From Desulfurobacterium sp. TC5-1 (GTDB taxonomy: Bacteria > Aquificota > Aquificia > Desulfurobacteriales > Desulfurobacteriaceae), in NCBI RefSeq assembly GCF_000421485.1, contig NZ_ATXC01000001.1, positions 1,357,087 to 1,421,086 on the forward strand: a stretch of DNA of 64,000 nucleotides, given 5' to 3'. The notes below the pieces were generated by a model that ran no database searches, was not told the DNA's origin, and worked only from the letters and a program-made list of their open reading frames with translations. Each line of letters opens with the position of its first letter. Positions within the stretch are counted from its first letter, which is position 1. Shown here in pieces: positions 30,448 to 51,647 of this stretch. The position numbers and the translations under genes are program-made.

Positions 30448-31713
30448 ATGGTATTTAAAGAGATAATAAAGAAAAAGAGAGACGGTGAAATCTTAACAGA
30501 AAAAGAGATAAGAGAGGCTGTAAAGCAGTACACGAACGGTGAAATTCCTGACTACCAGATGGCCGCCCTCCTAATGGCAATCTTTTTCAAAGGAATGACA
30601 GACAAAGAGACCCTTTACCTTACAGACGCAATGCTTAAAAGTGGTGAGACGATCAATATAAGCTGCAACGGAACAATCGTTGATAAACACAGCACAGGCG
30701 GTATAGGTGACAAGGTATCCCTTATAATAGCACCGGTTTTAGCAGAAATGGGATTTAAAGCTGTCTTACTATCCGGAAGAGCTTTAGGATTTACAGGAGG
30801 AACAGCGGACAAGTTAGAAAGTACTGGAATGAAAGTAACACTCTCAAAAGCAGAAATAGAAGAAGTCACGGAAAAATTCGGTTTTTCAATATCCTGTCAG
30901 ACAGATACAATAGCACCGGCAGACAGAAAGATATACGCATTGAGAGATGCTACCTCAACGGTTGAAAGTATTCCCCTAATAGTATCAAGCATATTAAGCA
31001 AAAAACTCTCTGTCAACACGGAAGCAATAGTCTTCGACGTGAAAGTGGGCACCGGTGCATTTATGAAAACGATGGAAAGAGCACGAGCCCTTGCAAATGG
31101 CCTTGTAAACGTATCAAAACTCTACGGAAAGAGAGCAGGAGCACTTATAACCGACATGAACCAGCCCCTTGGAAGAACGGCAGGAAACGCAATAGAAGTG
31201 ATAGAGTCTCTGAATGCACTATCGGGAGATATATCTGGCGACCTTTTAGAGGTCGTAACCTCTCTAAGCGGTGTTCTGTACGAAATAACAGAGACCGGCA
31301 GCTTCAAAGAGGGAAAAGGAAAAGCCGAAGAAATCATACTTTCAGGAAAAGCCCTTAATCGATTTGCAGAGTGGATAGAGTACTTGGGCGGAACAACAGA
31401 ACTCAAAATCTCAAAAAAAAGAGCTCTTGTTAAAGCTCAAGAAAGCGGCTACATAACTGAGATAGACGGGGAAAAATTGGGATTTCTGATAATAGAAATG
31501 GGTGGAGGAAGAAGGAAAGCCGGAGAAGAAATAGACCACTCAGTAGGTCTGAGATTTTTCAAAAAAATAGGTGACTACGTTAAGAGGGGAGAACCTGTAG
31601 GTGAAATAATCTATAACAGGGGAAATGTAGAAGAATTTAAAGCTTCGTTTTTACAGGCAATCAAATTTGGAAACGAAAAAAGAAACGTTAATATAATAAA
31701 AGAGCGGATATAA
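30448..31713 (+). CDS. deoA: Pyrimidine-nucleoside / thymidine phosphorylase
   Basis: 421 residues, within the usual 420-440. VDKHSTGGIGDKVSL (phosphate site), SGRALGFTGGTADKLES and ALRDATSTVESIPL are diagnostic. It splits thymidine or uridine into base and ribose 1-phosphate for salvage. Start ATG with weak GGTAGAAA upstream. Ten bases after the M50 gene, last of the plus-strand run. Could equally be Pdp (broader substrate). Confidence 0.93.
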   Translation: MVFKEIIKKKRDGEILTEKEIREAVKQYTNGEIPDYQMAALLMAIFFKGMTDKETLYLTDAMLKSGETINISCNGTIVDKHSTGGIGDKVSLIIAPVLAEMGFKAVLLSGRALGFTGGTADKLESTGMKVTLSKAEIEEVTEKFGFSISCQTDTIAPADRKIYALRDATSTVESIPLIVSSILSKKLSVNTEAIVFDVKVGTGAFMKTMERARALANGLVNVSKLYGKRAGALITDMNQPLGRTAGNAIEVIESLNALSGDISGDLLEVVTSLSGVLYEITETGSFKEGKGKAEEIILSGKALNRFAEWIEYLGGTTELKISKKRALVKAQESGYITEIDGEKLGFLIIEMGGGRRKAGEEIDHSVGLRFFKKIGDYVKRGEPVGEIIYNRGNVEEFKASFLQAIKFGNEKRNVNIIKERI

Positions 31714-49501: not shown

Positions 49502-50194
49502 TTATCTAATTTGTACCTTTTCTCTTTTTATCCTTTTGACGTTTATTACGCCTTTTGTTGATTTTATCGCATTTATAACTTTTTGAAGCTGAGAAACATC
49601 TTTTACCTGTAGTGTAAAATCAAGGATTGCTTTTCCCCCAATTGTTCGTGTGTAGGCACTTGCAATGTTTGTTTTTGTATCCGCTATCTTTGCCGATACG
49701 GCAGCTAACATTCCGGGTCTGTCTTCTACAAAGACTCTTATCTTTGCAGGGTAGAGCTTATCAGACGGTTTAAACTCTATTGAGAGGACTCTTCCTGGAG
49801 CGCTTTCAAGTACCTGCTGAGCCACAACACAGTTTTTTGTATGCACTACTATTCCTTTCCCCTTTGAAACAATGCCAACAACGTCATCGCCAGGAAGTGG
49901 ATGGCAGCACTTTGCCAGTGTAACCAGCATGTTTTCTATACCGTCAATAATAATGTCGGCACCTTCATTTTTCTTCTCTTTCTTTTTCTTCTTTTCCTGT
50001 TCTTCCTGGATTCCCAAAAGTCTTCTTACTAACTTTTCACCGTCAAGTTTTCCAAATCCTACATCAATTAGAGCAAATTCAAGTGATGAGTAACCGAGAG
50101 ATTTTAACTGTTCTGAAAAGTCGTTTTCATATAAAAAGCTTATGCCTTTTCCGGCACTTCTCCTGATTATCTTTTCAACAATACTTTCACCCAA
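49502..50194 (-). pseudogene. rel: C-terminal part of RelA/SpoT-type (p)ppGpp synthetase/hydrolase, separated by a frameshift
   Basis: 230 residues: a helical segment LGESIVEKIIRRS, the conserved-cysteine (zinc finger/CC) domain with LAKCCHPLPGD and VHTKNC, and a C-terminal ACT domain (RIRVFVEDRPGMLAAVSAKIAD-type sequence). It lies in a different frame from the catalytic half that precedes it and begins TTG at 50194 with no ribosome site. Joining the two through one base less in the A8 run (50195-50202) gives a continuous 715-residue Rel. So it is the tail of one gene, either broken or expressed by slippage. Confidence 0.85.
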
Positions 50195-51647
50195 TTTTTT
50201 TTGCTTTTTCGTTTTCCTGTTTTTTTATGAACGATTTTATGGCAGTTCTTGCCTTTGAAGTTTTTACAAAAGCAAGCCAGTCTCTTTTTGGATTTTCAAT
50301 ATTTCCGGTTATTATTTCTACTTTATCTCCGCTTCTGAGTATGTGATTTAAAGGAACAAGTTTACCGTTCACCTTTGCACCTATACATCTGTGTCCAACA
50401 CTTGTGTGTATTGCGTAGGCAAAGTCAACCGGCGTTGCGCCTTTTGGAAGTGTTTTGAGGTCACCTTTGGGTGTAAATACATAAATATCCTCTTCGTATA
50501 GGTCACTTTTGACGTTTTCCATAAATTCTTTTGTATCCTTTTCCTCTTTTACCCATTCTAAGAGATTTCTCAGCCAGAGGAATCTTTCCCTTTCAGATTC
50601 AGAGAGTTTACCGCCACCTTCTTTGTACTTCCAGTGGGCAGCGATTCCCATCTCTGCTATCTGGTGCATTTCGTGTGTTCTTATTTGAAACTCTATAAAC
50701 TGTCCCCGGGGTCCTACTACTGTTGTGTGGAGTGATTGGTACATATTTGGCTTTGGAACTGCTATGTAATCTTTAATTCTGCCCGGTACAGGCATCCATA
50801 GGCTGTGAATGAGTCCCGCTATAACGTAACAGTTTGGTACGGTGTCTGTTATTATTCTTATTCCTGCAACATCGTAAACTTCTTCAAAGGGGATACCTTT
50901 TTTTACCATTTTGTTATAGATACCGTATATGTGTTTAAATCGCCACTGTATTTCACCTTCTATCCCGTTCTCTTCAAGTTTTTTCCTGACGGTTTCTATA
51001 ATTTCTGAAAGGTATGTGCTTATTACTCTCTTTTTTTCTTTTACCTTTTCCTGAAGCTCTCTGTATATTTCTGGCTCAAGGTATTTTAGAGACAGGTCTT
51101 CAAGTTCATTTTTGATTCTGTAGAGGCCGAGTCGGTTGGCAAGTGGTGCGTATATTGTTAACGTTTCTCTTGCAGTTCTTCTCTGTCCGTTTGGACTTCT
51201 GCTGTCAAGTGTTCTCATATTGTGAAGGCGGTCTGCTAATTTCACTATAAGGACCCTTATGTCTTCAGAAAGAGAGATTAAAAGTTTTCTAAAACTTTCC
51301 GCGTTTCTCTCTTCTTTACTTGAAAACTTATACTGTTCAAGTTTTGTAACACCGGCAACGATAAAAGCTACCTCTTTTCCAAACTCTCTTTCTATCTCTT
51401 CTATTGTTGTATCCGTGTCTTCTACAACATCGTGGAGTAGGCCGGCGGCTATCGTGTGAACATCCATTTTCATTTCGGCTAATATGTATGCTACTTCTGC
51501 TGGATGGGAAAAGTAAGGTTCACCAGATTTTCTGAACTGTCCTTCATGTTTTTCTTTTGAGTATTTGTAAGCTTTCTCTATGAGTTTACTGTCAAAACTA
51601 TCCCTATAGGTTTTAACTTTTTCTATAATTTCTTTACAACTTCTCAA
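50187..51647 (-). CDS. rel: (p)ppGpp synthetase/hydrolase catalytic half (HD, synthetase and TGS domains)
   Basis: 486 residues, TTG start with GGGAG six bases upstream. HD hydrolase domain with HPAEVAYILAEM and HDVVEDTD, synthetase domain with IKDYIAVPKPNMYQSLHTTVVGP, and the TGS domain IYVFTPKGDLKTLPKGATPVDFAY. It stops at TGA after KKQENEKAKKIG, immediately beyond A8, where complete Rel continues with LGESIVEKI. A product ending here lacks the regulatory C-terminus, so it would be a shorter enzyme with possibly unbalanced alarmone synthesis. One gene of this family is usual in such genomes. Confidence 0.92.
   Translation of the reverse strand: MRSCKEIIEKVKTYRDSFDSKLIEKAYKYSKEKHEGQFRKSGEPYFSHPAEVAYILAEMKMDVHTIAAGLLHDVVEDTDTTIEEIEREFGKEVAFIVAGVTKLEQYKFSSKEERNAESFRKLLISLSEDIRVLIVKLADRLHNMRTLDSRSPNGQRRTARETLTIYAPLANRLGLYRIKNELEDLSLKYLEPEIYRELQEKVKEKKRVISTYLSEIIETVRKKLEENGIEGEIQWRFKHIYGIYNKMVKKGIPFEEVYDVAGIRIITDTVPNCYVIAGLIHSLWMPVPGRIKDYIAVPKPNMYQSLHTTVVGPRGQFIEFQIRTHEMHQIAEMGIAAHWKYKEGGGKLSESERERFLWLRNLLEWVKEEKDTKEFMENVKSDLYEEDIYVFTPKGDLKTLPKGATPVDFAYAIHTSVGHRCIGAKVNGKLVPLNHILRSGDKVEIITGNIENPKRDWLAFVKTSKARTAIKSFIKKQENEKAKKIG

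Follow-up and report, generated by a model that had tools for sequence, protein, structure and literature searches.

The only long rel gene in the genome of the hot-vent bacterium Desulfurobacterium sp. TC5-1 (G000) is split by one extra A in a homopolymer run, a break found in no other genome we compared; very probably this is a private A7-to-A8 insertion in an otherwise normal gene for a long bifunctional Rel, reflecting error or recent mutation rather than a programmed device. The gene lies on the minus strand of the window, by which we mean the whole 64,000-nt stretch of DNA analysed, where five tRNA genes converge on it and an ORF that, as read from its sequence, we take to be murI diverges from it. 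Its 5′ part is an ORF of 486 aa (51647..50187, minus strand) that begins at a TTG codon with GGGAGAT just before it and closes, 5 nt past the A run, with a TGA stop at 50187-50189; its 3′ part is an ORF of 230 codons (50194..49502, minus strand) in a shifted frame. The minus-strand reading at the junction is GAA AAA GCA AAA AAA ATT GGG TGA, with the A8 run at exactly 50195-50202, which corresponds to 1407281-1407288 of contig 1, and the frame breaks at residue 484, within the helical domain.

The two ORFs carry the complete domain set of a long bifunctional Rel (RSH), namely HD, RelA_SpoT, TGS, RIS and ACT in that order, distributed over two frames in TC5-1 and contained in one continuous frame in its relatives. 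Pfam matches in the 5′ part are HD_4 (1.8e-51), RelA_SpoT (2.9e-42) and TGS (2e-27), and alignment of this part to the solved Rel 6yxa revealed the HD motif HDVVEDT and the synthetase motifs RIKD and EFQIRT. The 3′ part matches RelA_AH_RIS (1.7e-09) and ACT_4 (5.4e-21), corresponding to the helical/RIS region (zinc finger, CC motif) and the ACT/RRM domain. Since the NCBIfam profile TIGR00691 (spoT_relA) is matched collinearly by both, with profile positions 1-458 in the first ORF and 463-687 in the second, they constitute one gene. The long Rel proteins of the Desulfurobacteriaceae and of B. subtilis (TIGR00691) have the same HD-SYNTH-TGS-helical-RIS-ACT order, with RxKD-type synthetase and HD hydrolase motifs; however, none of the relatives has its frame broken as that of TC5-1 is. 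The gene provides the only synthetase-family match and the only HD_4 match in this genome. The sequence, the ORFs and the profile matches therefore bear out the original prediction that rel is split at this A8 run. No further stop or frameshift was found in either half, as had also been claimed, and with one A fewer the protein is indeed continuous, although it has 714 residues, the length of the intact rel in the nearest relative, rather than the predicted 715. The second part likewise proved to lack a ribosome site, with no SD-like motif at its TTG or at any internal start that would retain the RIS domain.

We compared rel at the family level in 61 genomes (TC5-1 and its relatives), in which all other rel genes found in Desulfurobacteriaceae have frames open over 716-770 codons. 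A survey for split rel genes in 118 genomes of the phylum gave matches in 108; the other short frames among these ran into the edge of a contig or one N gap, or belonged to a single multi-stop copy from a metagenome-assembled genome, and no recurring break site was found. The multi-stop copy (L193, genome G087, from another genus in the phylum) is interrupted by several in-frame stops and also changes frame, and is either a decayed gene or the product of a poor assembly. A scan of genome contigs gave no second isolate of the TC5-1 species. Alignment of rel from close relatives for A7 versus A8, a check named in the original prediction, went against a maintained run: the congener G002 has GC-A7-TTGGG, the same context as TC5-1 and in frame; the nearest relative, G001, 96% identical to TC5-1 in the catalytic half, reads GCAAAGAAACTTGG (AAAGAAA), also in frame; the congener G003 has A6, again in frame; and A8 occurs in none of them. 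The run thus varies among congeners and is not a maintained element. With AAAGAAAC in G001 beside the A7 and A6 forms, the addition of one A to A7, in TC5-1 alone, is its simplest history.

The quality of the assembly was assessed against G005 (1,541,968 bp), which we take to be D. thermolithotrophum. For TC5-1 the comparison covered contig 1 and, in contig 2, 120 kb (all but 90 kb), while contigs 3 and 4 appeared as N; for G005 it covered 1.2 Mb (all but 342 kb). The matched set comprised 720 kb with 329 A/T runs of 7 or more. The rel break exceeds chance in this comparison: with 771 matched G005 proteins, no other conserved gene of TC5-1 showed a homopolymer-associated frameshift. The remaining frameshift candidates comprised small, ribosomal-protein-like genes lying next to one another, a segment at the beginning of contig 2 and a transposase-like gene without a homopolymer; this last, at C1:7925-8165, has a frame break and a stop and is probably an insertion sequence in decay. 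An intrinsic scan covering every run of at least 7 in TC5-1 returned mostly ordinary gene junctions. Since no other such frameshift appeared among the 771 proteins, the assembly has no systematic homopolymer error rate. A reciprocal control, with G005 as the broken side, gave one or two homopolymer frameshifts, so that an isolated case per genome is an ordinary figure. The G005 cases are an A7 frameshift at C1:80169 in a pyrimidine-nucleoside/thymidine phosphorylase, whose orthologue is intact at 30448-31713 (plus strand) of our window, and a frameshift at C1:728287-728297 (A8 adjoining T7) in a small conserved protein. One isolated case in TC5-1 is compatible with either one residual error or one real mutation. 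Across prokaryotes, frameshifts that are confirmed by homology and occur as singletons are expected to be mostly sequencing errors and not genuine indels (PMC3711429), and the private frameshift in rel fits that expectation. A broken gene or a sequencing or assembly error, which the original prediction had entertained as the alternative, is the reading favoured by a break that is private and by relatives that are all open. As to which of these it is, we give equal weight, in each case a little short of an even chance, to a residual sequencing or assembly error and to a real mutation that arose recently by replication slippage in the stock used for sequencing.

The original prediction had proposed that transcriptional slippage on A8 could be a way of setting the balance between regulated and unregulated enzyme, a reading that is not supported. 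Such slippage would require RNA polymerase to drop one A, or add two, in some transcripts, these being the only changes that regain the frame, and would yield both 486-aa and 714-aa Rel, the ratio of which may matter. With the reasoning of Baranov et al. (PMC1088944) as a guide, run counts in TC5-1 ORFs of 150 aa or more were compared with synonymous shuffles. A7 runs were seen 534 times with 638 expected, A8 runs about 115 times with 198 expected (0.58, a partial depletion) and A9 runs 3 times with 75 expected; the sharp drop falls at nine, the length at which A runs are likewise reported to be sharply avoided in many genomes (PMC1088944). For T8 in coding sequence the count was 18 with 84 expected, and T8 and longer runs, like A9 and longer runs, are strongly depleted, with a clear length threshold. 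Because A8 appears to be tolerated in over a hundred intact genes, it is probably little slippery in this genome. A homopolymer programmed for slippage should be conserved in relatives and of a length avoided in other coding genes; the run in rel is variable within the genus, and A8 is depleted only in part. Eight A's is nevertheless the length at which slippage by the E. coli polymerase first becomes detectable, at least eight being needed, but the deletion that rel would need was undetectable for that enzyme on the poly(A) runs examined (PMC6260861). Precedents exist in the thermophile Thermus, where dnaX gives two products through strong slippage on A9 (PMC1088944), and in C. rodentium, where tssM gives two length variants from A11 (PMC4256274). 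As in those genes, the A run of rel lies close to where a short and a long product would part; however, the dnaX and tssM runs are longer and their slippage was shown experimentally, whereas the run of rel is an A8 that varies within the genus and needs a deletion. An intact tail under normal constraint agrees with slippage, yet relatives up to 96% identical make full-length Rel without any such arrangement. We found no literature on RelA/SpoT with slippage, and a search on ppGpp with transcriptional slippage turned up no description of a rel gene of this kind. Given the variable run, the many intact genes that contain A8 and the deletion undetected in E. coli, we consider it very improbable that slippage on this run generates two Rel forms, and slightly more so that it mixes full-length and tail-less Rel so as to set the alarmone balance of a thermophile without another (p)ppGpp synthetase. 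The former is kept at low probability, rather than dropped, because Thermus slips strongly on A9 and the polymerase of a thermophile could differ.

Rescue of the tail during translation is extremely improbable. Ribosomal +1 frameshifting on A-AAA-AAA-A could occur through re-pairing of lysyl-tRNA, which is perfect in the +1 frame, and termination-reinitiation could use the TTG at 50194, which overlaps the 3′ end of the first ORF. Furthermore, the RNA downstream of A8 folds mildly better than shuffles (z -1.95). However, the A site holds no stop or rare codon to drive a shift, no SD-like stimulator is present, the motif is unconserved and the fold is weak, and reinitiation would produce a detached tail and not a linked enzyme.

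The two leading explanations are thus an error and a mutation that occurred recently in the stock used for sequencing, and the tail agrees with both. Relative to G001, dN/dS is 0.04 for the tail and 0.017 for the catalytic part, ratios that are rough since dS exceeds 1, and 4 derived residues in the tail fall on the TC5-1 branch versus 8 on the sister branch; by these measures no decay of the tail was seen. Because the genome has no other synthetase and no other HD_4 hydrolase, an old loss should have left traces. From the sequence, a break that is recent, artefactual or functionally tolerated would in each case fit an intact tail.

If the break is genuine, the product would be a 486-aa HD-SYNTH-TGS enzyme without RIS, without ACT and without most of the helical domain. 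Two engineered truncations retain the catalytic part and lose the RIS/ZFD and ACT/RRM domains as here. S. aureus Rel without its CTD (HG001-531) behaves in its own host as synthetase-off and hydrolase-on and is unable to mount a stringent response (PMC6053245), and B. subtilis Rel without the ZFD and RRM is hydrolase-competent and nearly non-toxic, whereas loss of the RRM alone is toxic (PMC7058999). In contrast to these constructs, the cut in TC5-1 lies in the helical domain and leaves the TGS in place. Because it lies upstream of the ZFD, a relaxed strain would be expected and not unregulated alarmone synthesis. By analogy, the short Rel would retain hydrolase and weak basal synthetase activity and would not be activatable by starved ribosomes, giving a 'relaxed' cell; the published truncations predict an enzyme that can still hydrolyse in a cell that has no stringent response, and not one that makes alarmone without restraint. 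The idea that the short form is an unregulated alarmone enzyme runs counter to what is reported for Rel cut before the zinc-finger domain in S. aureus and B. subtilis, namely a net hydrolase or weakly active protein and not an unregulated synthetase in its own host (PMC6053245, PMC7058999).

If real, the break would mean that the sequenced strain probably lacks the stringent response to amino-acid starvation, which matters for its use as a physiological reference; if it is an error, rel should be annotated as intact. Whether error or mutation, it does not indicate a new regulatory device.
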